Source of the DNA: a virus
Length of the DNA: 37,641 nucleotides
Strand: one strand, 5' to 3'
Virus record (IMG/VR): IMGVR_UViG_3300010371_000072
Coordinates: 1 to 37,641 of that record
The first letter of the stretch is position 1. Each line of letters opens with the position of its first letter. The position numbers and the translations under genes were made by a program. Positions 64 to 30,247 of this stretch are shown one piece after another. The notes below the pieces were generated by a model. That model saw only the letters and a list, made by a program, of their open reading frames with translations. It ran no database searches and was not told where the DNA came from.

Positions 64-108
64 TTTCTTGTCCCCGCGGTGGCTGGCGTTCAACGGTACT
101 TTTATATC
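64..108 (+). promoter_or_regulatory. late promoter element, copy 1
   Basis: The box TTTCTTGTCCCCGC (64-77) is followed after exactly 19 bp by TACTTTTA (97-104), a near match to the Bacteroidota -7 element TAnnTTTG. Four bp later comes the GTG start at 109. The same box, spacing and start position recur at 24015 and 30203, and without the adjacent start at 27616. The box lies slightly upstream of where a -33 element would sit, so an activator site is possible. Promoter function is inferred from the repetition. Confidence 0.6.
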
Positions 109-426
109 GTGAATGAACCTACTTACATCGGCATAAAGGATATGGTGGCTTACATGAACAGTGGCAAACCATTCAGCATGCTGTATGTAACATGGGATCA
201 TACGAAAGGGGCTGGTGGATCTGTGAAGGAAGTGCAGCTGGCATATAAGCATTACAGCAATACAACAGGCAACACAGCAAAGGCAAAGGAAGAAGGCATC
301 AAAAGAAATCCAAATCATTATCACAACAGCACGATGAATATAAAGATACCAGGGCAGGCAGGTGTTGATGTTCGCAAAGTTCATGTGCAATTAATCCGTC
401 GCTTCAATGGCGCAATCGTTAAATAA
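109..426 (+). CDS. small hypothetical protein at head of portal/tail operon
   Basis: This encodes 105 residues, and I do not recognise the family. The GTG at 109 is chosen because it sits 4 bp after the -7 box, exactly as in the gene at 30248. An ATG at 142, preceded by AAAGGA, is the alternative. The reading frame stays open upstream to an ATG at 40, but that would run through the promoter. The protein is basic, with a Gly-Gly stretch and no membrane segment. It ends directly before the portal ATG at 427, so the two are translationally linked and it probably belongs to head or packaging functions. Confidence 0.6.
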   Translation: MNEPTYIGIKDMVAYMNSGKPFSMLYVTWDHTKGAGGSVKEVQLAYKHYSNTTGNTAKAKEEGIKRNPNHYHNSTMNIKIPGQAGVDVRKVHVQLIRRFNGAIVK

Positions 427-1785
427 ATGGATATAATCTTTTCAGAAGGTAAAGCAGTATCATCAACAGCCATGTATCAAATGGCAACGCCTGATCCTGT
501 GGATCGTGCAGGCATTGTTCCTTCCAACAAAGTATATGTAGCTAGTGAGACAAGCGATCAGCCCTGGGTTAACTGGGGGTATGATAACCGCAAACCGGAA
601 AAGCTTGTGGAGAAGATTGGCAAAAGTGGCGTGCTAAGTGCAGCCATTGGCGCCAAGGCCCGCATTGCTATTGGTAAAGGCATTTGCCCGGTGATCATTA
701 CCGGCCGCAACAGTAAGACAGGCGAAGAGGAAATGGAATGGATCTATGATGCTGAGATAGAAGATTGGCTGGAATTGAATAACGACTACTTTAATTCACT
801 TCGTTCCATTCGTGACTGCATTGGATATGGATGGACACACGCGCGGATCACAATGGGCAACGGTCATCAAAACATTGCGGCATACAAAACTGATGATGTG
901 GTTAAATGCCGCTTGGGTGTAATGAATCCGGCATCGGGAGAAATAGAGCAAACATTTTATTCCCCGGTTTGGCGCAATGTGAACGGCAAAGGTGACACCA
1001 TTAATTATAAGGCAATTCAAATGCTTCGTGAAAATGGTGAGTTGTTAGATCTTCAGGCAAGGGTAAAAGGTGGCAGTAAAGTAACAGAATTCAGCATTAT
1101 CAGCCGGGGCGATCTGGATGGAAGATCTTACTATCCAAACCCGATCTGGCATAGTGTAATCGATTGGGTGGAATTGGTTATAAAAGTTCCTGAAATGAAA
1201 ATGGCGATGTTCAACAATCAAATGAGCATTAAGTACATGATCACTATCAGCACCAGGTATTTTGAAAAGGCCGACATCAAATGGAACTCATACACTGCCG
1301 CGGAAAAACAGGCAAAGTTTGCTGATAAAGTTACTGAGATCAACAAGCATTTGACAGGCAACGATAAAGCTTATAAATCAATCGCCGTTTCTTCTTACAT
1401 GGATCCAACAGGCAAAGAAATAAAAGATATTTCGATTGAGGTTTTGGATGACAAAGTAAAAGACGGAAAGCTTTTGCCCGAATCATCAGCCGGTGATAAG
1501 CAGATACTTTTTTCTTTAATGATGAACCCAACGATCATGGGAGCCAACACATTTGGCGGTGGTGACGGTGGCGCCGGATCCGGAAGCGATATTCGCGAAG
1601 CTTACCTGGTGCAGATCATGCTGATGGAAGCTGAGCGCCGTATGAATTCAAAAGTTTTCAACCTGATAAAAAGATTTAATGGCTGGCAGGATAAATACAA
1701 AGGCAAAAACCTTCAATTCCGTTATCCAAATTTAATTCTTACAACCCTTGACACCGGCGGCAGCACGGCGCCAGTAAACCCATAA
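427..1785 (+). CDS. portal protein
   Basis: This 452-residue protein is the best candidate for the dodecameric portal at the capsid vertex, through which DNA is packaged and to which the tail attaches. Its length fits small portal families. The middle (about residues 230-330) has the mixed helix and strand pattern of a clip/stem region. The C-terminal part holds a flexible Gly/Ser-rich loop followed by a helix with REAYLVQ (about 375-400), the arrangement seen in portal crown/wing regions of Bacteroidota prophages. It is followed after 2 bp by a two-domain connector-like gene. No other gene in the window is a better portal. The assignment rests on pattern and context, not on a catalytic motif. 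Confidence 0.7.
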   Translation: MDIIFSEGKAVSSTAMYQMATPDPVDRAGIVPSNKVYVASETSDQPWVNWGYDNRKPEKLVEKIGKSGVLSAAIGAKARIAIGKGICPVIITGRNSKTGEEEMEWIYDAEIEDWLELNNDYFNSLRSIRDCIGYGWTHARITMGNGHQNIAAYKTDDVVKCRLGVMNPASGEIEQTFYSPVWRNVNGKGDTINYKAIQMLRENGELLDLQARVKGGSKVTEFSIISRGDLDGRSYYPNPIWHSVIDWVELVIKVPEMKMAMFNNQMSIKYMITISTRYFEKADIKWNSYTAAEKQAKFADKVTEINKHLTGNDKAYKSIAVSSYMDPTGKEIKDISIEVLDDKVKDGKLLPESSAGDKQILFSLMMNPTIMGANTFGGGDGGAGSGSDIREAYLVQIMLMEAERRMNSKVFNLIKRFNGWQDKYKGKNLQFRYPNLILTTLDTGGSTAPVNP

Positions 1786-1787
1786 AT

Positions 1788-2759
1788 ATGCCTCTTTTTA
1801 AAACCATACAGGAAATTGCGCAATACATAACGATCAGCAGCGCTTCAACAGCATCGCCAATGCCCAAAAGCCGTGGCGCTGAAGAAGATTACATCAAACC
1901 TGTTTTGGGTGATGCTCTTTTTGCATCGCTTCAAACGCAGGTTACAACCCCGCCGATCACTGATATAGATCTGTTGGATAAAGTTCGCGCGGCCCTGGCA
2001 TATTTGATCTATTATAAAGAATTGCCGCTCATGCATACGATCATCACTGAATCAGGTTTGCGTAACGTGACAAGTGATAAGATCCAAGGCGCTTACCGCT
2101 ATCAGTATGAAGCGACACGGCAATATTTGGAAAATGAAGGTTTATCAGCGTTGGAAAAGCTTTATGAATACCTGATGGCTAATGTTGAAACCTATACAAC
2201 ATGGCAATCATCTGATGCATTTACCAGGCTCAATAAAAACCTGATCAAAACCGGCAAAGATTTTTCTTCTTACTATTATTTGTTTCAGCCAAACCGTACA
2301 TTTTTTGCCTTACAACCGGTGATGCAGGAAGTAGAAGATTTTTATATCAAATCCATTATCGGAGATACTTTCTTCTCTTTCTTAAAAGATACCACTTCAC
2401 TTTCACCAGAAGAAAAAAACGTGGTGGATATGCTTAAAAAGGCCGTTGCTAACCTAACCATTCACAAAGCGATCACGAAGCTGGCGGTAAAAGTCAGGCC
2501 TGAAGGATTTACCGTGCAGCTTGCTTCTACTGACAGAAATCCCGCCTCTGAAAATAATGCCGGTGCTGATCAGTTGGAACAGTTGCACCAGGAAACATAT
2601 CGCGATGGCAACGCGTATTTATCGAAAGCGCAACAATACCTGAACAACCTGGCAAGTGCAGAGGTTTTCCATGATTATTATGTTTCATCTTTTTACCAGG
2701 ATCCATTAACCACAATTACAGATCCTAACGATTGCATTCGTGGCATCTATGCTTTTTAA
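1788..2759 (+). CDS. DUF6712-like head-tail connector candidate
   Basis: The 323-residue, mainly helical protein appears to be an internal duplication. A block beginning 'YIKPVLGDALFASL' (about residue 36) and one beginning 'YIKSIIGDTFFSFL' (about residue 187) are alike, and each is followed by a long helix (LLDKVRAALAYL and VVDMLKKAVANL). This resembles the Bacteroidota phage family DUF6712, recalled from memory, and is reminiscent of gp6-type adaptors, often single-domain and helical. Its place right after the portal supports a connector role. The start is the ATG 2 bp after the portal stop. Confidence 0.5.
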   Translation: MPLFKTIQEIAQYITISSASTASPMPKSRGAEEDYIKPVLGDALFASLQTQVTTPPITDIDLLDKVRAALAYLIYYKELPLMHTIITESGLRNVTSDKIQGAYRYQYEATRQYLENEGLSALEKLYEYLMANVETYTTWQSSDAFTRLNKNLIKTGKDFSSYYYLFQPNRTFFALQPVMQEVEDFYIKSIIGDTFFSFLKDTTSLSPEEKNVVDMLKKAVANLTIHKAITKLAVKVRPEGFTVQLASTDRNPASENNAGADQLEQLHQETYRDGNAYLSKAQQYLNNLASAEVFHDYYVSSFYQDPLTTITDPNDCIRGIYAF

Positions 2760-2760
2760 C

Positions 2761-3540
2761 ATGAAAGAAATTATTTACGATATCAACAAATCTTTTCTTC
2801 TTACAGAATCAGCGGAAGAATTAACCGGCAAACAGTTTATTCAGCTTGCCGGTTTGTTGCACCAGGAATACACGACGCAATTGCAGGCTGATCTTGCAGC
2901 CATGCGCATTCTTTCAGGGATGTCGAAGTTTAAATTTTATTTTCTTCCAGCTGATGTTAAGATCCGAACGCTGGAACGTGCATTGGAAACGATGGAATGG
3001 GTTTTTGACAAGATCAGCATCACCAAAAATTTACTTCCTGTTTACAAAAAATATTATGGCCCATCTGAAGAATTGAACAATATGACTTTGGCAGAATTTC
3101 ATTTTGCTGAGCAATATTACTCTCAGCTAAAGGGTGAAAATTATGACGCACTTCCCTATCTCATCGCGACGATCTATCGACAGTCAAAGCCGGGGTACAA
3201 TAAAAGCCTGGATACAGATGGGGACGTGCGTCAAAAGTTTAATTCGAACGTGGTGGAATATCACGCGAAGAAAATAAGCAAATGGCCAAAAGCCGTGCAA
3301 TATGCGATTCTCATTTTTTACGACAGCTGCCGCGATAAAATTGCAAAAGACAACAAGGAAATTTTTTCAGGATCAGGCGAAGGTGATGGATTGGGAATGT
3401 ATTCTGTAATGCGTGGATTGGCAGGCCCAAAGTTTGGCGAAATTGAAAAAGTGGAAGAAATGCTGTTGCACAATGCTTTACTGGAATTGAACCTGATACG
3501 CGAAGAGGAAAAGGAATTGGAAAGGATGTATAAAAAATAA
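2761..3540 (+). CDS. hypothetical structural-operon protein
   Basis: This 259-residue, mostly helical and charged protein belongs to no family I recognise. The start is taken as the ATG at 2761, one base after the connector stop. An in-frame GTG at 2740 would overlap the upstream gene by 20 bp. The C-terminal 30 residues form a Glu/Lys-rich amphipathic helix ending ERMYKK. Its position between connector and tail genes suggests head-tail joining or tail assembly. Confidence 0.6.
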   Translation: MKEIIYDINKSFLLTESAEELTGKQFIQLAGLLHQEYTTQLQADLAAMRILSGMSKFKFYFLPADVKIRTLERALETMEWVFDKISITKNLLPVYKKYYGPSEELNNMTLAEFHFAEQYYSQLKGENYDALPYLIATIYRQSKPGYNKSLDTDGDVRQKFNSNVVEYHAKKISKWPKAVQYAILIFYDSCRDKIAKDNKEIFSGSGEGDGLGMYSVMRGLAGPKFGEIEKVEEMLLHNALLELNLIREEEKELERMYKK

Positions 3541-3550
3541 AACTGTTTAT

Positions 3551-4066
3551 ATGGGCACCTTCAAAGCGAAAGAAGATTATCTAAAACAATTGTGCATCGA
3601 TCATCCGGATGTTGCACACGGCGCTGTTGTTAATGGCATCACGCGCAACAGTTTTTTCCGGATAAATAGTGATGAAGAAATGATTGCTGCAACGCTTACC
3701 AACATTTCATATCCTGCCGTTGGCTATCTTTCTTTGAAAGGCAGATTGAAAGATACTGACAGCGCTATGATTGACATTCGCCATTCATTTTCCAACGCCT
3801 GGCTTTTCATCCAGCATGTTTCAATGATCACCGTCACAGATGGATTCACAGATGCAATCCAGGAATGTTACGATCAAACATTTGCCATCGTGGAAGATTT
3901 TATCAAAATGATGAAAGATGATTTTGAAGCAAATGGCAGTTGCGGCGCTTTCCAAAATTTTGATTTGAATAAAATCAGTTACGAAATGGCCGGGCCTGTC
4001 AATGAAAATGAATATGGCTGGTATTTATATTTTGATGATGAACAAAAAGCAACCAGGATAATATGA
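3551..4066 (+). CDS. hypothetical tail-module protein
   Basis: This encodes 171 residues of mixed alpha/beta pattern with no signal peptide or membrane segment, and I do not recognise the family. The size and the position between connector-like genes and the large tail proteins would suit a tail terminator or neck protein, but no motif shows this. Its stop overlaps the next start as ATGA (4063), so expression is translationally coupled to the Ig-domain tail protein. Confidence 0.6.
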   Translation: MGTFKAKEDYLKQLCIDHPDVAHGAVVNGITRNSFFRINSDEEMIAATLTNISYPAVGYLSLKGRLKDTDSAMIDIRHSFSNAWLFIQHVSMITVTDGFTDAIQECYDQTFAIVEDFIKMMKDDFEANGSCGAFQNFDLNKISYEMAGPVNENEYGWYLYFDDEQKATRII

Positions 4067-5967: not shown

Positions 5968-5979
5968 AAGAAAATCAGC

Positions 5980-7755: not shown

Positions 7756-7758
7756 GAT

Positions 7759-11648: not shown

Positions 11649-12062
11649 CTACGCTGAGCGGCGACGGCCTTCTTTTTTTGACGGTAATTGCGCTTTCAGG
11701 GCATCCCGCTCCTGTTCTAATTCCTTTACTTTTTTCATTAGCTCAATTTCTCGCTCGAGCAGTTCAATTATTTTCATTTGTGAATTCATCATAGGCGTTT
11801 CAGGTTCGGCCGCCATTCCTTCCGTTGACGGCTCTTTTTGGTGAAAATCGTTAGTTGGGTTTCTTTCAAAACGATACAGATCCAGATTATGATCTTTTAA
11901 AAGATGTTTGAATTCGACAGAAAGTTTTCCACCGTTCTTTTCCGCTTTCCGGATATGGTAATTGATATCCTGCCGCGTCTTACCTATTCTTTTGGCAAAT
12001 GCAGTTTTGGTGCGGCTTTCGGCTTTGATCAGTAGTTCAAGTAATTCAATTTCTGTCTCCAT
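11649..12062 (-). CDS. HTH + coiled-coil repressor candidate
   Basis: The 137-residue protein has an N-terminal helix-turn-helix (about residues 14-38, 'TAFAKRIGKTRQDINYHIRKAEK') and a C-terminal leucine-zipper-like coiled coil (about 92-125) with a basic tail. It should dimerise and bind palindromic DNA. It is divergent from the early operon at 12225, the classic position of a lysogeny repressor. The ATG at 12062 is preferred. An in-frame GTG at 12083 would add seven residues and lies inside the 20-bp palindrome at 12080. The 178 bp between its end and the secreted-protein gene hold no feature I can support. Confidence 0.65.
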   Translation of the reverse strand: METEIELLELLIKAESRTKTAFAKRIGKTRQDINYHIRKAEKNGGKLSVEFKHLLKDHNLDLYRFERNPTNDFHQKEPSTEGMAAEPETPMMNSQMKIIELLEREIELMKKVKELEQERDALKAQLPSKKEGRRRSA

Positions 12063-12130: not shown

Positions 12131-12162
12131 TTTTCCGTTTCGGAAAACAAACTTTACATTTG
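12131..12162 (+). promoter_or_regulatory. early promoter with operator palindrome O1
   Basis: TTTTCCGTTTCGGAAAA (12131-12147) is a perfect 7-bp inverted repeat with a 3-bp spacer. Eight bp downstream is TACATTTG (12155-12162), an exact match to the Bacteroidota -7 consensus TAnnTTTG. The palindrome fills the gap between the -33 and -7 regions, where a bound repressor would block RNA polymerase. The same pair of elements occurs at 14380-14412 before the serine recombinase. Confidence 0.65.
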
Positions 12163-14379: not shown

Positions 14380-14412
14380 CTTTCCGAAGCGGAAAGAAAT
14401 GCTTTACATTTA
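14380..14412 (+). promoter_or_regulatory. recombinase promoter with operator palindrome O2
   Basis: CTTTCCGAAGCGGAAAG (14380-14396) has the same half-sites and 3-bp spacer as O1 at 12131. TACATTTA (14405-14412) follows 8 bp later as a -7 element. The predicted transcript would start near 14418, about 30 nt before the recombinase ATG at 14450. This places the integrase under the same repressor as the early operon. Confidence 0.6.
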
Positions 14413-14449
14413 TTGTCCCAAATTTTTGTCAAAACAATAATTGCCACAC

Positions 14450-16027
14450 ATGAAAAAAGCGATCGGTTACATCAGGATCAGCACCAAAGATCAAAGCAAC
14501 TTCTCTCTTTCAGGTCAGGAGAAATACATTCGTGAATATGCCAGCCAGCACAGCATTGAGATAAGCTCACTGTTTACTGACGAAGGAAAATCAGCGAAAA
14601 ATTTTGATCGCCCGGACTGGAAATTGCTGGAAAAATTTATCGAAAAACATCACCGTGATATCGATTATCTTATCGTAGCAAAGTATGATCGTTTTTCCAG
14701 GAACGCCGCTCAGGGACTTTCCAAAATAGAACTGCTGGAAAGAAAATTTAAGATCATCATTGTATCAGTATTTGAGCAAATGTTTATTGATTACGATTCG
14801 CCTTTTTTCTTCAAACAACGTGCAGACATGCTGATCAGCGCTGAATTTGAATGGCACGTTATCCGCGATCGCACAAGGTTTGGCAACCACAATGCACGCA
14901 GCCAGGGAAGATATTTGGGAGTGGCGCCATTCGGTTATAAAAATGCGCGTGACGAACAAAACAAACCCATCCTGGTAATGGATGAAGCAAAGGCCAACAT
15001 CATTAAAAATATTTATGCAGGATTTCTCCGCGGCACCTCATTCACAGAATTGAGCAAAGCGGCAAGAAGCGAAGGTTTAACCAATTCCGGCAGATCCGCC
15101 ATACAACGCATACTTACTAACCCTGTTTATGGCGGATTAATCTTCGTGGCAGCCTACAAAAAAGAAGCCGCCAAATATGTGAAATCCATTCACCAGGGAA
15201 TTGTTGCTGAGCACACATGGTGGCAGGTGCAGCAACTGATGAATAAAGGCAAAGTGCGCACGATAATAAATGATGAAGTGCCGATGCGCTCTGTGTTACA
15301 TTGCCATTGCGGCCATCCATTAACGGCCGGAAACAGCAAAGGGAAAACAAAATACTATTGGTATTATAAATGCAACAAACACCCTGAAACAAGCTACAGC
15401 GCCGTAACGTTACACAATCAGTTTGATGAACTTTTATCGAATCTTTCTTTATCAAAAGTTCACATTGATTTCCTTCGTGAAGATGCGCGGAAAGAAATGG
15501 AATTGCAGCTTCAAAACCGCGACGCAGAATTGAAGGAATTGAAAAAAGAATTGCACACGAACACCACTAACATGCTTTCACTGGAAGAAAAATTTATCAC
15601 CGGCATTATCCAGTCGGACACATATAACAGATGGCACAGTAAGTATTCTGCGACTGAATCGCATCTGCGCTATCGCATCGAAAGCCTCACCGGCGACAAC
15701 CAGTTAGCCTGGAAGCTTTTCGATAAGGAATTACCTAAGCTTTCTGACATGCGCTTACTTTATTCATGGGCCACTGTCCCCCAAAAACAAACATTCATTC
15801 GGATGGTGTTCAACTCACAATTGCGCTATGAAGAAGGTGTCTATCGAACACCCTATTTGCTACCGTTCTTTTCGCTGAACACCGCGTCATTAAAGGAAAA
15901 AAGGCTGCTCGAAGTGGAGCAGCCAGAGGAAGAATTTGGAAAAATTGTTGGAAGTACCCCCACCGGTACTTCAATTGAACTCTCCACACAATTTCTTTCT
16001 CTTATTGCGCAGATAAAGGCTGCGTAA
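14450..16027 (+). CDS. large serine recombinase (phage integrase)
   Basis: The 525-residue site-specific recombinase should join attP to attB and, with a directionality factor, excise the prophage. The catalytic domain has YIRISTKDQ with the nucleophile Ser11 and Arg9, and AKYDRFSRN with Arg81/Arg84. A recombinase domain follows (about 165-260, 'GFLRGTSFTELSKAA', 'ILTNPVYGG'). Next come a zinc-ribbon remnant (CHCGHPL and a later YYKC, about 285-310) and a coiled coil (about 345-385). ATG 14450 is chosen over a TTG at 14441 because MKKAIGYIR is the normal start. The last 40 codons overlap a tRNA-like attP candidate and a reverse-strand terminator. The promoter carries operator O2. Confidence 0.92.
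   Translation: MKKAIGYIRISTKDQSNFSLSGQEKYIREYASQHSIEISSLFTDEGKSAKNFDRPDWKLLEKFIEKHHRDIDYLIVAKYDRFSRNAAQGLSKIELLERKFKIIIVSVFEQMFIDYDSPFFFKQRADMLISAEFEWHVIRDRTRFGNHNARSQGRYLGVAPFGYKNARDEQNKPILVMDEAKANIIKNIYAGFLRGTSFTELSKAARSEGLTNSGRSAIQRILTNPVYGGLIFVAAYKKEAAKYVKSIHQGIVAEHTWWQVQQLMNKGKVRTIINDEVPMRSVLHCHCGHPLTAGNSKGKTKYYWYYKCNKHPETSYSAVTLHNQFDELLSNLSLSKVHIDFLREDARKEMELQLQNRDAELKELKKELHTNTTNMLSLEEKFITGIIQSDTYNRWHSKYSATESHLRYRIESLTGDNQLAWKLFDKELPKLSDMRLLYSWATVPQKQTFIRMVFNSQLRYEEGVYRTPYLLPFFSLNTASLKEKRLLEVEQPEEEFGKIVGSTPTGTSIELSTQFLSLIAQIKAA
15897..15924 (-). terminator. intrinsic terminator on minus strand inside recombinase 3' end
   Basis: Read on the minus strand, GGCTGCTC-CACTTC-GAGCAGCC forms a perfect 8-bp stem followed by TTTTTT. 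It lies 26 bp beyond the tRNA-3'-end-like core at 15951-15972 in the same reading direction. After integration into a tRNA gene it would act as the terminator of the rebuilt tRNA. Confidence 0.6.
15951..15972. other. attP core candidate (tRNA 3'-end mimic)
   Basis: GAAGTACC-CCCACC-GGTACTTC is a perfect 8-bp inverted repeat, a shape expected for serine-recombinase sites. GTACCCCCACCGG read in reverse resembles the acceptor/T-stem end of a Bacteroidota tRNA. In the recombinase it is translated as GSTPTGTS, much like the GTPTGT peptides that occur where recombinase genes run through tRNA ends (established from memory). The rest of a tRNA is absent, as expected for attP. Confidence 0.5.
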
Positions 16028-18858: not shown

Positions 18859-18861
18859 ATT

Positions 18862-20737: not shown

Positions 20738-20739
20738 TT

Positions 20740-20935
20740 GCTGCCAACGGTCAGGGCTTGGCGATGGGCTGGAATAGAAATCGTTCAGCCGAAACAAAAG
20801 TAAAATTGAAAAACTAAAGATGATGAAAATAGAAAATGTTGATAAATGTTCGTCTGCTGGAACAACTGCTGATAGTGAACTACAGCCGATTGACTTCCGT
20901 CAGCCAGCCTATTGCCAAACCCCATGTTATGCGCC
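20740..20935 (+). repeat. attC-like recombination site B
   Basis: TTGGCGATGGGCTGG (20758-20772) pairs with CCAGCCTATTGCCAA (20904-20918) over 15 bp, with only two G-T wobbles. The outer cores are AAC (20746-20748) and GTT (20926-20928). The loop carries an A-rich leader and the tandem ATGATG at 20820. The 5' arm sequence GCGATGGGCTGGAA is shared with site A, while the cassettes between are unrelated. Confidence 0.75.
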
Positions 20936-21497
20936 GTCTATCGTGTTTCTCGACATTGATGGGGTGTTCAATTGTCAACTTTTTTATAGCAGCAAACAGT
21001 TTCAGAACTACAGAGAAGCAAAGAAACAGTTGCGTAAAGATGTAAAAGCAAAACGAATTGAAAGGCTCGAATATTATGCAAGTCAGATTTGTAAAGAACG
21101 AGTTCAATGGTTTAATAAATTATGTGAAGAAGTAAATGCTGTTGTTGTTATTTCTTCAACTTGGCGGCAAAATAAAACTGTTGGGGAACTTCAAGAAATA
21201 ATGGATTACTGCGGCGGTAATTTTAAAATTATTGATAAGACACCATACACGGGTTATGAGCGTGGAACAGAAATATCAAAATGGTTGCATGATAATATTA
21301 AACCTGAAATACACGGTTGCCACTATTATGATTTTCATCGTTACGTGATTATTGACGATGATAGTGATATGCTGTTAAATCAAAGGTTTAATTTTTTTCA
21401 GACAGACAATTATTCTGGTCTTACACCGAATACTTGCTATAAAATAAAAAGATTTTTAACTGGCCGCACTTTCGGACTGTCTGCCGATGGCGCATAA
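20820..21497 (+). CDS. cassette C: HAD-superfamily phosphatase-like protein with attC-encoded leader
   Basis: This is a 225-residue protein. Residues 1-36 are encoded by site B. The HAD domain starts almost at once with SIVFLDIDGVFN (Asp45 nucleophile, Asp47), then motif II in VVVISSTWRQ, RGTEISKWL, and the acidic motif YVIIDDDSDM. It resembles the HAD family found in RNA-repair 'Swiss army knife' proteins. A normal HAD protein would start two or three residues before SIVFLDID, so the native Met is missing and the leader replaces it. The GTT of the site is one base out of the frame phase used in A and B. The ends GTTATGCGCC and GGCGCATAAC are perfect 10-bp inverted repeats. Confidence 0.7.
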   Translation: MMKIENVDKCSSAGTTADSELQPIDFRQPAYCQTPCYAPSIVFLDIDGVFNCQLFYSSKQFQNYREAKKQLRKDVKAKRIERLEYYASQICKERVQWFNKLCEEVNAVVVISSTWRQNKTVGELQEIMDYCGGNFKIIDKTPYTGYERGTEISKWLHDNIKPEIHGCHYYDFHRYVIIDDDSDMLLNQRFNFFQTDNYSGLTPNTCYKIKRFLTGRTFGLSADGA

Positions 21498-21530: not shown

Positions 21531-21586
21531 ACTTTTAAATACTTACAAATGGACACTGTACAAGCTGAAAAATTATTCGTAAACGA

Positions 21587-22378
21587 ATGCAATCAAAGAA
21601 CTGGAGCCAAAGCACTATTGATAATTATGCTTCGCAGGTGCGTTGTTTTTTGAGAGAATTTAAATCGCGTGACCGGGCGCGCAATATTACCGCTGATGAA
21701 ATTGAAAAATATCTTTTGCAAAAAGTTCAGATCAACACGCGCAAACATGCCAGATGCGGTATCCAGGCTTTTTATAAACTGGCCATAAACCAGCCAATGA
21801 AACTGGCGCACATTCCCTGGCCTAAAAAGGAAAGAAAATTACCACAACCTATTGATGCCAGTGACGTGCAAAAGTTGCTGAAGGTTTGCACCAATTTGAA
21901 ACATAAAACCATCATTGCGTTGTTATATGGCTGTGGGCTGCGTGTGAGCGAAGTAATTAATATGAAGATAAAAGATATTGACAGCACTAAAAATATCATC
22001 AATATCATTGCCGGTAAAGGCAAAAAAGACAGGCAGGTGATGCTGGCGCCGGAATTGCTTTCGCTGCTTAGAAAATATTACCAGGCTTACCGGCCCAAAG
22101 AATATTTATTTAACGGACAGTTTGATCTGCAGTACAGCGACCGAAGCATTAATGAGTTTTTGAAAAAATATGCGAAGCTGGCCGGGATAAGGCAGAATCT
22201 TCATGCTCATTTATTGCGTCATTGCTTCGCCACTCATTCATTAGAGCAGGGCACGGATATCAGCCTGATTCAAAAACTGCTGGGCCATAACAGCATTAAA
22301 ACGACAATGATTTACACGCATGTGAGCACCAACATCATTGCCAATACTCATTCACCATTGTCAAGTCTTGCATTGTAA
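21587..22378 (+). CDS. XerD/IntI-like tyrosine recombinase
   Basis: This 263-residue site-specific recombinase has an N-terminal SAM-like core-binding domain (1-75) and a complete catalytic set: Arg119 (GCGLRVSE), Lys in GKGKKDR (144-147), His208 and Arg211 (HLLRH), His234 (LLGHN) and Tyr243 (TTMIYTHV). The end HSPLSSL resembles the SPL(D) end of integron integrases and Xer relatives. It lacks the roughly 20-residue insertion before HLLRH that marks IntI, so it is not a canonical integron integrase. It lies directly after the cassette array in the same direction. The phage also has a serine integrase, so this enzyme is free for another job such as moving the cassettes. Confidence 0.85.
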   Translation: MQSKNWSQSTIDNYASQVRCFLREFKSRDRARNITADEIEKYLLQKVQINTRKHARCGIQAFYKLAINQPMKLAHIPWPKKERKLPQPIDASDVQKLLKVCTNLKHKTIIALLYGCGLRVSEVINMKIKDIDSTKNIINIIAGKGKKDRQVMLAPELLSLLRKYYQAYRPKEYLFNGQFDLQYSDRSINEFLKKYAKLAGIRQNLHAHLLRHCFATHSLEQGTDISLIQKLLGHNSIKTTMIYTHVSTNIIANTHSPLSSLAL

Positions 22379-22499: not shown

Positions 22500-22524
22500 G
22501 CTACTGCGTGGGAGTGGCAGTAGC
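22500..22524. other. hairpin beside the GTWAC cluster
   Basis: GCTACTGC (22500-22507) and GCAGTAGC (22517-22524) form a perfect 8-bp stem with a 9-base loop. There is no T run after it, so it is not a clear terminator. It lies between the tyrosine recombinase and the phased repeats and may belong to an origin. Confidence 0.4.
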
Positions 22525-22622
22525 AGTTGTTCAATCGGAAATTTTGCTTTTTCAGCCGTTGAAATTCGCAGAAAAGATAATATGAAGAGTGAAAAAGTAT
22601 TTTTTGAATCCTGTTTTTCAGC

Positions 22623-22820
22623 GTTACAAGCGTTACATTTTAATTTCAAATTCAATAAAAATCAATACAGTAAAGGATTTAACGTTGTAACGATACACAC
22701 AAAAACACAGGATTTTGTTACAAAGCGTAACAGAATCCGTAACGCAGCGTTACAACGTTGTTACAAATCGCTTGTAACAAGGATGGTAAAGGATTTGAGC
22801 CACTTTGTAACGTTTGTAAC
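22623..22820. repeat. helically phased GTWAC boxes (origin/partition candidate)
   Basis: Eleven copies of GTTAC or GTAAC occur in 198 bp, where under one is expected by chance. Starts are at 22623, 22632, 22687, 22717, 22727, 22739, 22749, 22760, 22774, 22807 and 22816, with another at 22461. Most extend to TGTTACAA or TGTAACG. Six successive starts are 10, 12, 10, 11 and 14 bp apart, placing them on one face of the helix. A very A-rich tract (22833-22858) follows. Iterons of a replication origin or a partition/regulator site are the likely meanings. The 480 bp from 22379 to 22858 contain no gene I trust. Confidence 0.6.
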
Positions 22821-22858
22821 AGGAAAAGTTTGTTGAATAAAAAAATAAAAAAATAAAA

Positions 22859-23203
22859 ATGGAAACATCTGTTATCAACCAGGAAGTAAAAGAACTTCCA
22901 CTGAAAAATCTGAACAATTGCCTGGCATGTGATGCATTTAACTACATCACCTTTGCGCCGGATCGTTCCATTACTGATAAAGATCTTCAAAAGGTTTATT
23001 ATGTAAAAAATGGTGATGAAGCTTTTTATTGCCAGATAGTGGATCTGTATCGGTGCGATTTTTCGCGAATGCCTACCATTGCTACTATCTCAGCCACCGG
23101 CATGGAAGCACACGAATGGGCGCTGTGGTGGCTGGAACAATACCCGGAAACAACGGCAGAAACGAAAATGGTTGTTTATCAGTATAAAAAAATAAAGGTT
23201 TAA
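22859..23203 (+). CDS. hypothetical protein
   Basis: This 114-residue acidic protein has two Cys near the N-terminus (NNCLACDAF) and a C-terminal 'MEAHEWALWWLEQYPE'. The family is not recognised. It lies 3 bp before the next small gene and directly after the A-rich end of the GTWAC region. Confidence 0.55.
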   Translation: METSVINQEVKELPLKNLNNCLACDAFNYITFAPDRSITDKDLQKVYYVKNGDEAFYCQIVDLYRCDFSRMPTIATISATGMEAHEWALWWLEQYPETTAETKMVVYQYKKIKV

Positions 23204-23205
23204 TT

Positions 23206-23415
23206 ATGGAAAAATTTAAAATAAAAATTGAATATCTGCCAAAATATTCTCCCGAAAATGCAACTTACAATGTACAGGAATGGAACATTGATAATTTACA
23301 GGATGCAAGGAAGTTGATTATTGATCAGAGAGAAATTCATGTGAAAAAATCTAAATGGTTTAAATTATTTAGAGATAATGAATTAATATTCGATTCGCAT
23401 CTTATTAAGAGATAA
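23206..23415 (+). CDS. small hypothetical protein
   Basis: This encodes 69 residues with a beta strand at each end and a central helix (LQDARKLIIDQRE). It is charged and without a membrane segment. It follows the preceding stop by 2 bp. No function can be assigned. Confidence 0.5.
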   Translation: MEKFKIKIEYLPKYSPENATYNVQEWNIDNLQDARKLIIDQREIHVKKSKWFKLFRDNELIFDSHLIKR

Positions 23416-23472
23416 AAAATAATTTTCATTTCCCCTTTTTTTTCATTAGATTAGGCGAACCGTCTTAATTAA

Positions 23473-24003
23473 TTGCATTATATCAAACTACCAATACCTG
23501 TTAAGACCTATGTACGCAAATACATAGAAAAAGAATATCCGGGCTCCATAAAGCTTGGCTTTAAAAACACCCTTGGATATTACCTTTATGTAGTGCTGGA
23601 AAAACAATCTTCCCACTGGCACCGGAAGCACGAAACTCTTTTACAAAAACGATATTCACTGCTCACTGATCATTTTATTGTGCAGCTTCCTGCAAACTCA
23701 GATACTTTTTACAAAACCGGTTTTTCTCTTCCCATTTCAAAAGCCATCCTGATCAATGATTATTTTGAAGATCAGATCATTAAGGAAATAAATTTCCGGG
23801 CCAACACTTACTGTAAAGTTGGTTTTAGCAGAAACCAGGCGATTGAAGATTTCTGCGAAGAGTACAATATTATCATCGATGTTGACATTACGCATGGCGC
23901 TCTGAAAAAAGCTGAATACCGTTACAGAAAATATAAGGCGCAATTGTCCCCGCGCGAATCACAGATGCCAACCATGCTTTTTAAAGAAAAAGCAACACGC
24001 TGA
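23473..24003 (+). CDS. hypothetical regulator-like protein before the late region
   Basis: This 176-residue basic protein has a C-terminal part (about 118-155, 'CKVGFSRNQAIEDFCEEYNI' followed by ALKKAEYRYRK) that reads like a helix-turn-helix or helical DNA-binding end. The N-terminal half (YIKLPIPVKTYVRKYIEKEY, LYVVLEKQ) is alpha/beta. The apparent start is a TTG with no ATG nearby. It is the last gene before the second late promoter element and is a candidate for the activator of the CTTGTCCCC promoters. That role is inferred from position and basic character only. Confidence 0.5.
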   Translation: MHYIKLPIPVKTYVRKYIEKEYPGSIKLGFKNTLGYYLYVVLEKQSSHWHRKHETLLQKRYSLLTDHFIVQLPANSDTFYKTGFSLPISKAILINDYFEDQIIKEINFRANTYCKVGFSRNQAIEDFCEEYNIIIDVDITHGALKKAEYRYRKYKAQLSPRESQMPTMLFKEKATR

Positions 24004-24014
24004 AGCCTGTGTTA

Positions 24015-24059
24015 TTTCTTGTCCCCGATTGCCGCTGATGCCGCTGGTAAATTAGCAGC
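24015..24059 (+). promoter_or_regulatory. late promoter element, copy 2
   Basis: TTTCTTGTCCCCGA (24015-24028), 19 bp, then TAAATTAG (24048-24055) and 4 bp to the ATG at 24060. Box, spacing and start-codon distance equal those at 64 and 30203. A leaderless transcript is predicted. Confidence 0.6.
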
Positions 24060-24644
24060 ATGAATCAAACTTCTTATAATGGAGTTTCCAATTTTATAAA
24101 GGGCCTGCCGGTGATCGGTGGCTTTTGCAAATTTTGGTTTATTCCTATTGAAGAAGTGGATCAGATGCCCGTTATTAATCCAGCCACCCAGGTATTGAAA
24201 ACTGAAATAGTATTAAAAGCCGGAAAAGCCTGGCGCGGCCCGGTGCCTGTTCCGGATGCACAATTAGGATTTACCGAAAGTGCAAAAACAGGTAATTCCG
24301 GCCCTTACTATCAAATAAAAGTTGGATGCAGCTATCCGGGCGATATTCCGGCAGCCCGTGAGAACATTGAAAACATGGCTTACAGTCAATATATGATCGT
24401 TGGCAAGCTTCGCACAACAGGTTTTTTTGTAGTGATAGGCAATCCGGAAGCGGGTGCAGACTTCAGCGGGAATTTTGACAGTGGCAATACCAACGGGAAT
24501 GGCGCGCTGAATACCATTTCATTTGATATTGAACAGGTAAATAAAGCATTGGTGCTGCCTTCGTTCAATGGAAGTGAAAGTGGATATGTCAATTTCAGCG
24601 GGCAAACAATTTCAAACGAAAATGATTACTGGGAACTGGAATAA
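24060..24644 (+). CDS. virion-associated hypothetical protein
   Basis: This 194-residue, beta-rich, Gly/Asn-rich protein (AGADFSGNFDSGNTNGNG) has no signal peptide or membrane segment. It is the first gene after a late promoter element and directly precedes the fibre gene, so a tail-tip or fibre-base role is likely. The ATG is placed 4 bp after the -7 box. Confidence 0.6.
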   Translation: MNQTSYNGVSNFIKGLPVIGGFCKFWFIPIEEVDQMPVINPATQVLKTEIVLKAGKAWRGPVPVPDAQLGFTESAKTGNSGPYYQIKVGCSYPGDIPAARENIENMAYSQYMIVGKLRTTGFFVVIGNPEAGADFSGNFDSGNTNGNGALNTISFDIEQVNKALVLPSFNGSESGYVNFSGQTISNENDYWELE

Positions 24645-24650
24645 ATAATT

Positions 24651-26453: not shown

Positions 26454-26455
26454 TC

Positions 26456-26941
26456 ATGCCATACATCCAACTTTCTACCAACGACATTGTAATCGACATT
26501 CCTGATGTGAACATCGGGCAAACAGTAATAAAGCGCACTGCCACATTGTTTGATATGGATTACAACACCCACAACAAGCAGGTTGTGTTACGCTGGCTCA
26601 TAAAACACTTTGCCAAAAATGCTGACGGCACTAAAGGAGATTATCTGCCTTTCATAACCGATTGGGCAAAAGAATCCATCGCTGATAATACTACCATGTG
26701 CGACGTTACCAATGGCCAGCCAATTTATAAAACGCATGATACCGGTGAAGTGGAAAAAGATGCAAATGGCAATCCGATATTAGACGCCAACGGAAACCAG
26801 GTGCCGATAATGGATTATGATCCCGCTATCAATTATTCAGGCCAGTATGATGTGTTCTTTAACATGGCTCAGGCGCAACCGGTGTTGGTCAATCCAATGA
26901 TCATTCAATTCGGGCAACTCGTACAATCATGGGATAAATAA
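26456..26941 (+). CDS. fibre-associated hypothetical protein
   Basis: This 161-residue protein has a short internal repeat (DANGNPILDANGNQVP, about 100-115). It follows the fibre gene by 2 bp and is likely a fibre accessory or assembly factor. I do not recognise the family. Confidence 0.55.
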   Translation: MPYIQLSTNDIVIDIPDVNIGQTVIKRTATLFDMDYNTHNKQVVLRWLIKHFAKNADGTKGDYLPFITDWAKESIADNTTMCDVTNGQPIYKTHDTGEVEKDANGNPILDANGNQVPIMDYDPAINYSGQYDVFFNMAQAQPVLVNPMIIQFGQLVQSWDK

Positions 26942-26964
26942 ATTCTTAAACCAAAATAAAAAAA

Positions 26965-27252
26965 ATGACAAAAATTGATCTAAACGTGCAGCTGATAGAT
27001 ACAACAGGCAACACAGTAAAAGACAGAACACTCGCGCAAACATTGAGCGAAATAATTGCCACTCAAACAGAAGGTAAAACGCTCAAATTATATGGATGGC
27101 ACAAAACTTTACAGGTAGGCGATCCGCTGATATTGGATGATGCCGATAAAAAGGATTTGGAAAAACTGATTGACGAACACAAAACCATGTTCGTCTTTGT
27201 AAAAGGTCAACTGTTGGAAGTGATCAGCAACGCAAAAGAGGAAGTAAAATGA
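26965..27252 (+). CDS. hypothetical protein
   Basis: This 95-residue alpha/beta acidic protein contains 'TLAQTLSEIIATQTEGKTLKL'. Its end overlaps the next start as ATGA. The position after fibre genes and a length near 100 residues could suit an assembly chaperone, without direct evidence. Confidence 0.55.
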   Translation: MTKIDLNVQLIDTTGNTVKDRTLAQTLSEIIATQTEGKTLKLYGWHKTLQVGDPLILDDADKKDLEKLIDEHKTMFVFVKGQLLEVISNAKEEVK

Positions 27253-27614
27253 AATACATCGCAGCATTATTAGGAGCCATTTTACTTGCCGTCATCTTCC
27301 TGCCGGTAGGGTTCCTTTATGCCATGTTTTTCCGGGGCCGCACCAATTTTCTTTACAAAACATCCATCGGTATTGATCAGCTTGGCAACGTGGTTTGCGG
27401 CAAACTTTTCAACCTGATTTTGACAAAAAAAACTGGTTATCCATTCGGCAATGAAGATGAAGTGATCAGCAGCGTTATCGGAAAGAACCTGGCAACCGGC
27501 ACACTCACTTTCGCTGGGCGGTTACTTGCTTTTTTGCTGGATGAAATCCAAAAAGGGCATGTTGAAAAATCGATTGAAAATTTCAGTGAAGCAACAAATA
27601 AAACGGTTTCTTAA
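27249..27614 (+). CDS. membrane-anchored hypothetical protein
   Basis: This 121-residue protein has one strong N-terminal transmembrane helix (about 4-28, IAALLGAILLAVIFLPVGFL) and a soluble helical tail with 'GRLLAFLLDEIQKGHVEKSIENF'. It is coupled to the previous gene by an ATGA overlap and begins a run of membrane proteins that leads to the endolysin. Confidence 0.6.
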   Translation: MKYIAALLGAILLAVIFLPVGFLYAMFFRGRTNFLYKTSIGIDQLGNVVCGKLFNLILTKKTGYPFGNEDEVISSVIGKNLATGTLTFAGRLLAFLLDEIQKGHVEKSIENFSEATNKTVS

Positions 27615-27615
27615 T

Positions 27616-27653
27616 CTTGTCCCCTCCCTGCTGAAAAAGATTATACAGATTTG
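27616..27653 (+). promoter_or_regulatory. late promoter element, copy 3
   Basis: CTTGTCCCC (27616-27624), then 21 bp and CAGATTTG (27646-27653), matching the -7 box TAnnTTTG except at the first base. Spacing equals the other three copies. Unlike them, the next start codon (27686) is 32 bp downstream, so this mRNA would have a short leader. Confidence 0.5.
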
Positions 27654-27685
27654 GATTCACTTTAAGTAAATAAAATACGACTAAA

Positions 27686-27877
27686 ATGAAAACCTCAAAC
27701 ATTATCAAATTAATTGCAACAGTATTGTTGCTTGGTTTGGCTTTTTTCCTGTTTGGATTTGAACCGCCAATAAATCCAACCTGGTTTCAGGATCACCATA
27801 CTTTATTCGCTGGAATTTCTGCCGCATTGGGCGTAATACTGGCCGCAACCACGTTCAAACCCGGTAGGAAAGTTTAA
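27686..27877 (+). CDS. small two-span membrane protein
   Basis: This encodes 63 residues with hydrophobic segments at about 6-24 (IIKLIATVLLLGLAFFLFG) and about 38-55 (TLFAGISAALGVILAAT), then a basic end. Size and topology match a holin or a small lysis regulator. It is the first gene after promoter copy 3. Confidence 0.6.
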   Translation: MKTSNIIKLIATVLLLGLAFFLFGFEPPINPTWFQDHHTLFAGISAALGVILAATTFKPGRKV

Positions 27878-27899
27878 AAACAAAACCATTTTTTCGCCC

Positions 27900-28298
27900 A
27901 TGCTAACTGCCTCATTAACTGCTTTATTTTACCTGTACAATATTGTTTTTAATACTGTATTTGTTTTTTATACCAAATACCAGTTTGAAGATGAAAAAGC
28001 AGGATGGGAGCGCTCAAAAGGTAAATGGCACAAATACGGGATGGCCATGCGCGTGATGGCTTATGCCGGGCCGTTTGTGGGTGTTTTTTCATTACCTCAT
28101 ACGAATTGGAAAGATTGGTTGTTGTGTGGCGTGCTGATCATGCCGCTTTGGGATATAATGATCAACGTGGAAGCATTGGGAATGGCGCCTCTTTACAACG
28201 GCGCCACATCAACTTTGGATAAGAAATTTAAAGGAATCAAATGGATCATGTATGCGTTGCTATTGATAGGCGCCATCATCATCAAATTTACCTACTAA
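27900..28298 (+). CDS. multi-span membrane protein
   Basis: This 132-residue protein has about four hydrophobic segments (4-25, 50-65, 75-88, 114-130) and a conserved-looking 'WERSKGKWHKYGMAMRVMAY' between spans 1 and 2. It has no recognised family. It lies in the membrane-protein block before the lysis genes. Confidence 0.6.
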   Translation: MLTASLTALFYLYNIVFNTVFVFYTKYQFEDEKAGWERSKGKWHKYGMAMRVMAYAGPFVGVFSLPHTNWKDWLLCGVLIMPLWDIMINVEALGMAPLYNGATSTLDKKFKGIKWIMYALLLIGAIIIKFTY

Positions 28299-28312
28299 CC
28301 TTGAAAACTACA

Positions 28313-28489
28313 ATGACTGAAAATTCGAGTCCTTTTTACCTGTTTACCAGCTTTTGTTCTACCGTATTTGCGCTGGTAACTTTCCATGATGTGCAGGTGA
28401 TGCTGACAATTATTGCAACAATGGTTTCTATTGTCAGCGGCTCAATGGCAGGTTATTATTATTACAAAAAGGCCCGTGGCATGAAATGA
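28313..28489 (+). CDS. small two-span membrane protein, holin candidate
   Basis: This encodes 58 residues from the ATG at 28313 (an open frame extends upstream but overlaps the previous gene). Hydrophobic segments at about 8-23 and 28-48 are followed by a basic tail (YYYYKKARGMK), a holin-like layout. The end overlaps the next tiny ORF by ATGA. Confidence 0.55.
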   Translation: MTENSSPFYLFTSFCSTVFALVTFHDVQVMLTIIATMVSIVSGSMAGYYYYKKARGMK

Positions 28490-28587
28490 AATATTATTTA
28501 AAACACCTGATGTGGCTGGCGATTGCAGCAATAGTGCTGTACTTTTTCTGTTGGCTGCACACGGCAGGAATAATATTAAATGATTAA
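28486..28587 (+). CDS. 33-residue single-span membrane peptide
   Basis: The ATG lies inside the previous stop (ATGA overlap) and the next gene begins 3 bp after its stop. One helix (LMWLAIAAIVLYFFCWLHTA) follows a short basic end. It could be a holin modulator or antiholin. Confidence 0.5.
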   Translation: MKYYLKHLMWLAIAAIVLYFFCWLHTAGIILND

Positions 28588-28590
28588 AAA

Positions 28591-29094
28591 ATGAATACCC
28601 AATTCAAATATTACAGCGTACTGATCTTCCTGATCATCCTGGGCGTTTTTCTGGGCCTGTTGATGCTAACAAGTTCCTGCAACGTTTCCAAAGCAAAAAA
28701 AACATTGTCTGTTGATAGTACGCACGTAAATAAAGTGGATTCAGGATCTGTAAAAAAATCAACCGCAACCGATAAAACCACCGCCGATTGGGAAAGGCAG
28801 GTGTTAATTTTTAAAGATACCACCATCAATCATTATTCTACTTCGCAATCGCCTGTTGATTACAACCGGCTGGCCGCTGTGATCAATGAAAAAGGAAATT
28901 ACCAGCGCGACAGGCAAAGCACCGGATATGATTCATCCTGGAAACAACAAATTGATTCTTTGAAAACGGTAATAAAAGAAAGCCAGAAAGATAAGACTGA
29001 GAAAAGTTTTTCATTCTGGCAGATCATAGGAATTGCGGCGGGAATATCACTTGTGTTTTTCATTATTGGAAAATTTAAAATATCACTGAAATGA
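28591..29094 (+). CDS. unimolecular spanin candidate
   Basis: This 167-residue protein has hydrophobic segments at both ends. The N-terminal one ends in LLMLTSSCNVSK, a lipobox-like site of Bacteroidota type (SSC), so the mature protein may be an outer-membrane lipoprotein. The middle is hydrophilic, with a helical 'QIDSLKTVIKESQKDKTE' (about 120-138). The C-terminal helix (FWQIIGIAAGISLVFFIIG, about 141-160) would insert in the inner membrane. This lipoprotein plus C-terminal-span design is that of u-spanins such as T1 gp11, and it sits three genes before the endolysin. Neither end is proven experimentally. Confidence 0.5.
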   Translation: MNTQFKYYSVLIFLIILGVFLGLLMLTSSCNVSKAKKTLSVDSTHVNKVDSGSVKKSTATDKTTADWERQVLIFKDTTINHYSTSQSPVDYNRLAAVINEKGNYQRDRQSTGYDSSWKQQIDSLKTVIKESQKDKTEKSFSFWQIIGIAAGISLVFFIIGKFKISLK

Positions 29095-29318
29095 ACTTTA
29101 AAAACACCGCTCTTTATCAGCGCGTAAAATCAGAAACGCCAAACTGGTTCAAAGTGATCAGGAAGATCAGCATTGCTGCGACAGTGATAGCAGGTGCATT
29201 GCTGGCGGCAAACGGAGTGGCAGGATTTGTATTGCCCGAAATTTTAAACGCGCCTTGTCAATGGATCATGGTGGCAGGCATCACCGGTGGCGCAATAGCA
29301 ACAACAGCAAAAAAATAA
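29091..29318 (+). CDS. small two-span membrane protein, holin candidate
   Basis: This encodes 75 residues with two spans (about 25-46 ISIAATVIAGALLAANGVAG, about 57-71) and basic flanks (KVIRKIS at the front, AKK at the end). It overlaps the spanin candidate by ATGA. Close to the endolysin, it is the better holin candidate of the several in this block. Confidence 0.6.
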   Translation: MNFKNTALYQRVKSETPNWFKVIRKISIAATVIAGALLAANGVAGFVLPEILNAPCQWIMVAGITGGAIATTAKK

Positions 29319-29323
29319 AGCTT

Positions 29324-29458
29324 ATGTATAGTTTCAACTTTGGGCCTAATTGGTTTTGGCGATTGCTTTTTATCCTGGCTGCAATTGGTTTGATCCTGGG
29401 AATTATAAAAGTAATACACGCCATTATCTGGATTTTTCATCATGTTCAAATTAACTGA
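29324..29458 (+). CDS. 44-residue membrane protein
   Basis: Start ATG 29324. The protein has one long hydrophobic helix (about 12-39, RLLFILAAIGLILGIIKVIH and on) and many Trp/Phe residues at the N-terminus. It ends 2 bp before the endolysin start, so the two are probably co-translated. Confidence 0.5.
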   Translation: MYSFNFGPNWFWRLLFILAAIGLILGIIKVIHAIIWIFHHVQIN

Positions 29459-29460
29459 CT

Positions 29461-29937
29461 ATGGCAACCGATATCGTGTCCGAAAACCGCCTTTTACAGC
29501 TTCATCCAAAAGTGAGAGATAAAGCCATTGCCGCTTATCGCGAAGCTGTTAGGATTACACCTGTTGGTGTTCATCCTTTCATCACGCAAACTTTAAGGAC
29601 ATTTAAAGAAAGCGATGATCTGTATGCACAAGGCCGCAGCAAACCAGGAAAGATCGTTACCAATGCACCCGGTGGATCTTCATTCCATAATTATGGCCTT
29701 GCCATTGATTTTGTATTGCAGGTAAATGGATTGCCAAAATGGGAAGTGAATGCAGATTGGATGAAAGTGGTAAAATGTTTCAAAGACCAGGGCTTTGCAT
29801 GGGGCGGCGATTTTAAAAGCATCAAAGACAATCCACATTTTGAAATGACATTTGGATACACCTGGCACCAGCTGCTGGAAAAACATAATTGCAGCGATTA
29901 CATGGCCGGAAAAGACAGCCAATATTTAAGACTTTAA
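29461..29937 (+). CDS. endolysin, M15-type D,D/L-Ala-D-Glu peptidase
   Basis: This 158-residue peptidoglycan peptidase has the M15 zinc site: His76 and Asp83 in SSFHNYGLAIDF, and His126 in PHFEM. It also has the upstream TLRTFKESDDLYAQGR (about 44-59) typical of phage CwlK/T5-type endopeptidases. It has no signal peptide and no cell-wall-binding domain, so export depends on a holin. It cuts peptide cross-links of the host wall at lysis. It lies at the end of the membrane-protein block. Confidence 0.9.
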   Translation: MATDIVSENRLLQLHPKVRDKAIAAYREAVRITPVGVHPFITQTLRTFKESDDLYAQGRSKPGKIVTNAPGGSSFHNYGLAIDFVLQVNGLPKWEVNADWMKVVKCFKDQGFAWGGDFKSIKDNPHFEMTFGYTWHQLLEKHNCSDYMAGKDSQYLRL

Positions 29938-29949
29938 AAAACAACAGCT

Positions 29950-30195
29950 ATGAAAAAAATGTACTTCGCGCTCTTTATGACCGCGTTATTTTCCTGTAAA
30001 GAAAAAAGCAATCAACATCTTCAGTTTGATGACCAGGGAATTATTTTAAACGACAGCATTACCATTGCGCCACATGATGCATATTACCAAAGCCAGGAAA
30101 AGCCAACCCGTGGCACATCGGCAACCGTTGCGATTGCAAATAATAATGACACAGCGAAAGTGTTTATAGTGAAGATTATTGAGGTAGTGCCATAG
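29950..30195 (+). CDS. small lipoprotein, possible o-spanin
   Basis: This 81-residue protein has a signal peptide ending ALFSCKEKSN, a lipobox-like Cys at residue 16. The mature part is hydrophilic, with a beta-rich end (VFIVKIIEVV). A small lipoprotein just after the endolysin suits an outer spanin subunit or an envelope moron. Confidence 0.5.
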   Translation: MKKMYFALFMTALFSCKEKSNQHLQFDDQGIILNDSITIAPHDAYYQSQEKPTRGTSATVAIANNNDTAKVFIVKIIEVVP

Positions 30196-30202
30196 CTTTT
30201 AT

Positions 30203-30247
30203 TTTCTTGTCCCCGCTTGCTTTTTTGCATCACAATAAGTTTGTATC
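30203..30247 (+). promoter_or_regulatory. late promoter element, copy 4
   Basis: TTTCTTGTCCCCGC (30203-30216), 19 bp, TAAGTTTG (30236-30243, an exact TAnnTTTG), then TATC and the GTG at 30248. The last part, TATCGTGAA, is identical to copy 1. It drives the protease/capsid module, probably as a leaderless message. Confidence 0.65.

Follow-up and report, generated by a model that had tools for sequence, protein, structure and literature searches.

Bacteroidota phages are major members of the gut, mouth and marine viromes, and the closest described models for the control of their late genes come from other phages. In phage Mu, the gene for the activator C immediately precedes the late operons under its control, the site of C adjoins or overlaps the -35 region, and the host sigma factor is kept. 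The middle promoters of T4 depend on MotA/AsiA: a short asymmetric box near -30 replaces the -35 contact, while the -10 element is host-like. P2 uses the zinc-finger late activator Ogr/delta, with sites of the form TGT-N12-ACA near -55. Here we describe a box, CTTGTCCCC, which heads four gene blocks in the virus record IMGVR_UViG_3300010371_000072 (the window, 37,641 bases, analysed as a whole), and the gene at 23473, the product of which is a candidate to bind it. Probably, the four sites are activator-dependent late promoters and the 23473 protein is the activator that binds the box.

The host promoters provide the second comparison. In the available portions of three papers (PMC6847099, PMC7366714, PMC9723704), Bacteroidota primary-sigma promoters consist of a -33 TTTG and a -7 TAnnTTTG element. 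Like these, the phage sites have a -7-like element, with a predicted 4-5 nucleotides (nt) to the start, and presumably use the host polymerase; unlike these, they lack the -33 element and carry TGTCCTTTY at -40 to -32 instead. As for Mu C, a candidate activator gene stands just before late operons, the site lies by the -35 region and the host sigma factor is presumably kept, whereas the protein has no Mor/C sequence match (Pfam, PHROG) and a weak structural likeness (Z 3.1), and the box here is single and non-palindromic. T4 MotA/AsiA shares the short asymmetric box in place of the -35 contact and the host-like downstream element, but its box is near -30 rather than at -40, and no sequence relation was found. 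P2 Ogr/delta is similar as a late activator with TGT-containing sites, while the zinc-finger Ogr match is absent here and the site layout differs.

The open-licence literature has almost nothing on how Bacteroidota phages control their late genes. Searches of it listed no report of a TGTCC late-promoter element in these phages, though subscription work may exist, and the word promoter is absent from the available part of the Leef paper (PMC8776804). A code of TGTCC, 23 base pairs (bp) and a -7 element would mark late operons and, in genomes without annotation, point to the gene that is likely the switch. It could yield inducible promoters for Bacteroides tools, and would offer an example of late mRNAs without leaders in a phylum that has no Shine-Dalgarno initiation.

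A four-copy box at the heads of gene blocks

An exact scan of the window found CTTGTCCCC at four positions (sites A-D), all on the + strand and none on the - strand. The sequence-only reading, which first pointed to the box, was right about 27616, while its other three positions (64, 24015 and 30203) were each 3 bases low, the true ones being 67, 24018 and 30206. From each copy it is exactly 21 bp to a -7-like element (TACTTTTA, TAAATTAG, CAGATTTG and TAAGTTTG in site order A-D), as that reading had claimed; the strict TAnnTTTG occurs only at site D, and the other three are near matches. All four boxes are located at the heads of gene blocks, which agrees with its assignment to structural and lysis modules: portal/tail (A), a late gene (B), an endolysin block (C) and the head protease (D). 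A second contig, IMGVR_UViG_3300025921_000691 (G001), is colinear with the window except for the contig ends and gene content. The features of the four sites are as follows.

67..75, + strand: site A box CTTGTCCCC, predicted -42 to -34; 9/9 in G001
97..104, + strand: -7 element of site A, TACTTTTA; GTG 109 follows after 4 nt; 8/8 in G001
109..426, + strand: first gene of the portal/tail module, 106 codons, GTG on the predicted +1 (leaderless); precedes the gene of a portal-like protein
24018..24026, + strand: site B box CTTGTCCCC
24048..24055, + strand: -7 element of site B, TAAATTAG; ATG 24060 follows after 4 nt (predicted leaderless)
24060..24644, + strand: first late gene, conserved, no function assigned; 88% identical in G001
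27616..27624, + strand: site C box CTTGTCCCC; CTTGTCCTC in G001
27646..27653, + strand: -7 element of site C, CAGATTTG; with +1 predicted at 27658, the leader to ATG 27686 is 28 nt
29461..29937, + strand: endolysin, within the module headed by site C; phrog_2649, E=7.8e-35
30206..30214, + strand: site D box CTTGTCCCC
30236..30243, + strand: site D -7 element TAAGTTTG, 4 nt before GTG 30248 (predicted leaderless)
30248..31441, + strand: head maturation protease, opens the capsid module; phrog_53, E=3.8e-37; Peptidase_S49

The four exact copies compare with a mean of 0.035 and a maximum of 1 in 200 shuffles of the window. Copy number alone proves little, since CTTGTCCCC was chosen post hoc, its count with one mismatch is ordinary (5 copies, 4.78 expected) and 22 GC-rich 9-mers occur at least 4 times in the window, shuffles giving similar multiplicities; by itself it was rejected as evidence for the box. 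What argues for a real box is its position at the gene-block heads together with orthologous conservation. The box is found at 4/4 orthologous places in G001 and nowhere on the opposite strand of that contig, so that its absence ahead of orthologous modules, which the sequence-only reading had named as grounds for giving up the idea, is not what is seen. Identity between the window and G001 is 35/36 in the boxes and 27/32 in the -7 elements, but 46/84 in the spacers and 54/160 (near random) in the 40 bp upstream, and the 21-bp spacing is unchanged at 8/8 sites of the two. The observation of a four-copy box at fixed spacing is confirmed. Chance repetition of a short word, to which the many four-copy 9-mers and the ordinary one-mismatch count would be congenial, is practically negligible as an explanation in view of this conservation, the fixed spacing and the antisense and host controls, and the out-of-sample result given below refutes it.

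Terminase alignment scans found G001 as the only relative, and IMG/VR pattern scans (CTTGTCCCC plus -7 element; a stricter leaderless form, 82 stretches) gave, among the matches listed, no further phage of this dialect beyond it. Among the matches listed for the CTTGTCCCC plus -7 scan, spacings of 20, 21 and 22 bp occurred 27, 51 and 41 times and the start codon was in place in none; therefore these stretches are read as chance.

A wider TGTCC grammar

Judged from its sequence, the window box is one dialect of a wider putative promoter grammar, composed of TGTCC[T/C], 23 bp and a TAnnTTTG-like element. A related box, TGTCCTTTC, lies directly downstream of several distant 23473 homologs with the same 23 bp from TGTCC to the -7-like element, and the letters after TGTCC tend to be lineage-specific (CC in the window and G001, otherwise TTTC, TTTTTT or TATT). 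This refines the sequence-only reading, as the evidence supports TGTCC rather than CTTGTCCCC as the functional core, and the phage-specific box tail suggests that activator and box co-evolve.

The rule was applied unchanged to an out-of-sample set that had not been used to define it. Within the order to which a Maribellus genome belongs, a 15-sequence profile of the 23473 family matched 20 of 295 genomes, and 15 of these 20 genomes provided 20 new loci. Of 155 TGTCC in them, 10 had TAnnTTTG at an offset of 28 nt, counted from the first T, compared with at most 1 at any other offset and 0 of 256 antisense. As a host control, 80 Bacteroidota-type loci (both strands, 2.03 Mb) gave TAnnTTTG at offset 28 in 0 of 1169 TGTCC. 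A blind word search upstream of 292 TAnnTTTG in three phage sets ranked TGTCC at 28 at the top (18 occurrences, 0.13 expected). Unbiased 6-mer scans of single phages were too noisy: they found the box in the window, Leef_1 and G407 and missed it in G001, MZ447863, G180, G614, L331 and L332.

The motif search in related Bacteroidota phages that had been proposed earlier was productive, the grammar appearing to recur ahead of late modules in distant prophages and in named phages, among them Leef_1, BT-TP2 and Porphyromonas phages. For instance, the Polaribacter phage Leef_1 has boxes at 469, 1808, 2475, 10520, 30638 and 34590, three of them leaderless by prediction (start codons at 1848, 2515 and 34630). 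Besides, Mea-Yong924-1 (MZ447863) has five TGTCCTT boxes (13088, 17597, 19632, 23769 and 28689), good -7 elements accompany each of three boxes in the faecal phage MT835542, and G180 (Flavobacteriales) has TGTCCTATT boxes. Homologs of the gene at 109..426 precede the portal gene in both Leef_1 and MZ447863. No strict site was found in FCL-2 and B124-14, which are without the 23473 family and are only two negatives.

Some further features of these phages were noted. Two late boxes of Leef_1 (~2450-2480 and ~34560-34595) stand directly after the terminator-like hairpin and T run that close the previous gene, which looks like a combined terminator-promoter unit. The portal, terminase, capsid and late-promoter grammar of Mea-Yong924-1 are Bacteroidota-phage-like, and its stated Microcystis host may be wrong. 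This phage also contains a cluster of TGTCCGAA repeats at 11783-11961, and TGTCCG again near 28442-28595 (reverse-strand coordinates), both distinct from the late box.

Predicted start sites and leaders

To the extent that the accessible part of the Flavobacterium johnsoniae report covers it (PMC6847099), the -7 element has T-12 and G-5 as its outer bases, and a further 4-5 nt separate it from the transcription start. With this rule we infer the start sites: the box would occupy -42 to -34 and +1 would fall on the start codon at 3/4 window sites, namely A (GTG 109), B (ATG 24060) and D (GTG 30248), implying leaderless late mRNAs. Site C, with its predicted 28-nt leader, is outside the leaderless rule and speaks against generalising it. 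The predicted leaders in G001 are 1, 0 and 0 nt at A, B and D and 29 nt at C. The predicted leaderless sites in several phages differ from what the available parts of the host reports give, with 5.5% of mRNAs leaderless in F. psychrophilum (PMC9723704) and ~3.7% with leaders below 10 nt in B. thetaiotaomicron (PMC7366714).

In the 11 sequences reached through the 23473 family (window and G001 included), a start codon lies exactly 40 nt on from 27 of the 149 + strand TGTCC, while other offsets have a mean of 1.38 and a maximum of 6 and antisense TGTCCYY gives none at 40 nt. For ten of those sequences the count is 27/143, and TGTCC is the best of 1024 5-mers at this place. Such a count is what would be expected if the box worked in RNA or translation, set by the distance to the start codon, rather than as promoter DNA. 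This explanation is very improbable, because site C and the 20 new loci have varying start-codon distances and a constant 23 bp to the -7 element. The new loci have start codons at offsets 40 and 41 in 2 and 8 cases (mean 2) and mostly belong to genes with leaders, so leaderlessness is regarded as a lineage trait outside the core rule.

We aligned 82 sites from 39 sequences, leaving out G132 and G592a (contig ends after the gene; near duplicate). Having a -7 element, or a start codon at +1/+2, was part of how these sites were chosen, therefore both the -7 logo and the leaderless count (46/82) are biased upward. A-11, T-8, T-7 and G-5 are conserved over the alignment, as in the host promoters of the portion available of PMC6847099. 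No -33 TTTG element was found ~19-21 bp upstream of the -7 element, with at most 0.30 bit between -31 and -13 outside the box. The claim that the box differs from the Bacteroidota -33 element holds, the TGTCC core being placed at predicted -40 to -36.

The 23473 gene as candidate activator

The following two features concern the candidate gene.

23473..24003, + strand: candidate late activator, 176 amino acids, TTG start; ends 14 bp before box B
23945..23951, + strand: second copy of TGTCCCC, within the 3' end of the 23473 gene, with the TGTCC of site B 75 bp downstream

The sequence-only reading had singled out the protein of this gene for a binding test, and it is still the best candidate, its family co-occurring with the boxes. 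The protein belongs to no Pfam, NCBIfam or PHROG family, and tblastn against phage and plasmid collections gave nothing, distant members (~25-30% identical) being reached by profile only. A two-sequence profile matched 0/4 genomes, 1/395 in a phylum sample and 10/394 in the family of that match; in Flavobacteriales the family was matched in 1/296 genomes (G180). Leef_1 gp39 is a homolog (E=3.8e-9) encoded just before gp40 and the head protease, and MT835542 also has one (E=6e-9). Further members occur in 18 Porphyromonas phages, and Bacteroides phage BT-TP2 has one as its gp8, annotated there as a transcriptional regulator. Its genes stand just ahead of the first late genes in Leef_1, G407, G614, BT-TP2 and the P. 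gingivalis phages.

Binding, activation and the identity of the activator are what we infer from this arrangement. The 23473 protein would be produced ahead of late expression and would bind the box, with its core TGTCC at -40 to -36 and a reach to about -32, where it would substitute for the absent -33 contact. From there it would recruit the polymerase of the host, carrying the primary Bacteroidota sigma factor, to a -7 element that in many cases would not suffice by itself, and transcription would start 4-5 nt after that element, on the start codon at A, B and D and 28 nt before it at C. The host-like -7 element, the missing -33 element, the asymmetric box at -40 to -32 and the rigid spacing point to an activator touching primary sigma or polymerase from the -35 region.

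The earlier suggestion of a phage activator or sigma-like factor is supported in its first half, and the second fits less well because the -7 element keeps the host form. A phage-encoded sigma-like factor would recognise the entire promoter and use the box as its -35-type element; the box-to--7 spacing has no slack, as in two-element promoters, and the 23473 model has a weak likeness to SigD4. It is nevertheless quite unlikely, since A-11, T-8, T-7 and G-5, the pattern of the host primary sigma factor, are retained in the -7 element and no sigma domain appears in Pfam, NCBIfam or PHROG scans of the protein, nor a sigma-70-type domain in those of its family. That the promoters are real and the box is bound by another conserved phage protein is unlikely too. 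The association with 23473 is one of co-occurrence, and the genes just upstream of site B (22381, 22859 and 23206) are also common to the window and G001, but the 23473 profile alone retrieved distant prophages that were later seen to have boxes, and the family is usually encoded directly before the first late promoter.

Structure prediction is only suggestive, the modelled fold being compatible with DNA binding and no more. A single-sequence fold was unusable (predicted local distance difference test, pLDDT, 36), while AlphaFold2 with five sequences reached pLDDT 76.8 and a predicted template modelling score (pTM) of 0.70. The predicted fold has a strand, helices, a second strand and then three helices (88-115, 120-130 and 141-158). 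By title, 16 of 49 VIA rows are DNA-binding or helix-turn-helix (HTH) proteins, mostly over residues 95-162. They include Mu C (9l0x_H; Z 3.1, root-mean-square deviation 4.3, 77 residues, range 27-161) and a SigD4 chain (3vep_D; Z 3.3, 51 residues). The Mor family had no Pfam match for 12 + 7 members and none in PHROGs, and the Ogr zinc-finger family was not matched in Pfam or PHROGs.

Several results weigh against the activator reading. Foldseek with the 23473 model gave 0/96 matches at E<=0.001, and the VIA matches are weak (best Z 3.9), with no clear relative. Structural genes co-occur with the boxes as well, so the link to 23473 is not exclusive; the weak homolog of Mea-Yong924-1 (E=6e-9) is located away from the late block, and the 18.9-kb fragment MT836146 has two strict sites and no 23473 homolog within it. 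In the 82-site alignment, 8 of the 39 sequences have no site (L360, L361, L363, L364, L366, L367, L369 and L372), six of them below 7 kb. The rule failed in four named Porphyromonas/Bacteroides phages, where a strict -7 element is at offset 28 in 1/160 TGTCC and 1 is elsewhere. Their -7 elements are degenerate (e.g. TACTTTCG and TTTCTTTG), and a relaxed form, chosen post hoc after inspection, matched 13/40 TGTCCYY (mean 0.67). Start codons at 40 were found for 5/40 TGTCCYY (against 0.46) and for 5/160 plain TGTCC, the latter not unusual with other offsets up to 8.

A second TGTCC is not limited to the window: in a search of the 200 bp preceding the first late box, 8 of 10 genomes have another one, at a distance of 40-117 bp. 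Often it reads TGTCCCC and falls in the 3' end of the activator gene, in varying reading frames. The copies inspected lack a -7 element at 23 bp, and the second TGTCC may be an extra activator site or a feedback element. Taking these points together, we put forward tentatively, as a possibility that is somewhat short of even, that a new activator family controls the late genes of Bacteroidota temperate phages from soil, sea, mouth and gut through a TGTCC box replacing the primary-sigma -33 contact, that the structural operons of several lineages are leaderless, some with GUG, and that the second box in the activator gene tunes the first late promoter.

Other features of the window

The window ends just past the tape-measure gene, with a terminator-like hairpin in 37505-37641, and its positions 1-66 are those just before site A. 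G001 has ~1.2 kb between the tape-measure end and site A, and the window record may be near-complete but broken there. A HAD_SAK_2 domain protein (RNA-repair-type HAD) at 20820-21497 has no match in G001. Two recombinases are present, a large serine recombinase and a tyrosine recombinase (14441-16027 and 21587-22378), the tyrosine recombinase being without a counterpart in the G001 contig. The palindromes TTTTCCGTTTCGGAAAA (12131-12147) and CTTTCCGAAGCGGAAAG (14380-14396) lie directly upstream of the -7 elements TACATTTG and TACATTTA of the early genes 12225 and 14441, and are likely repressor operators on early promoters.

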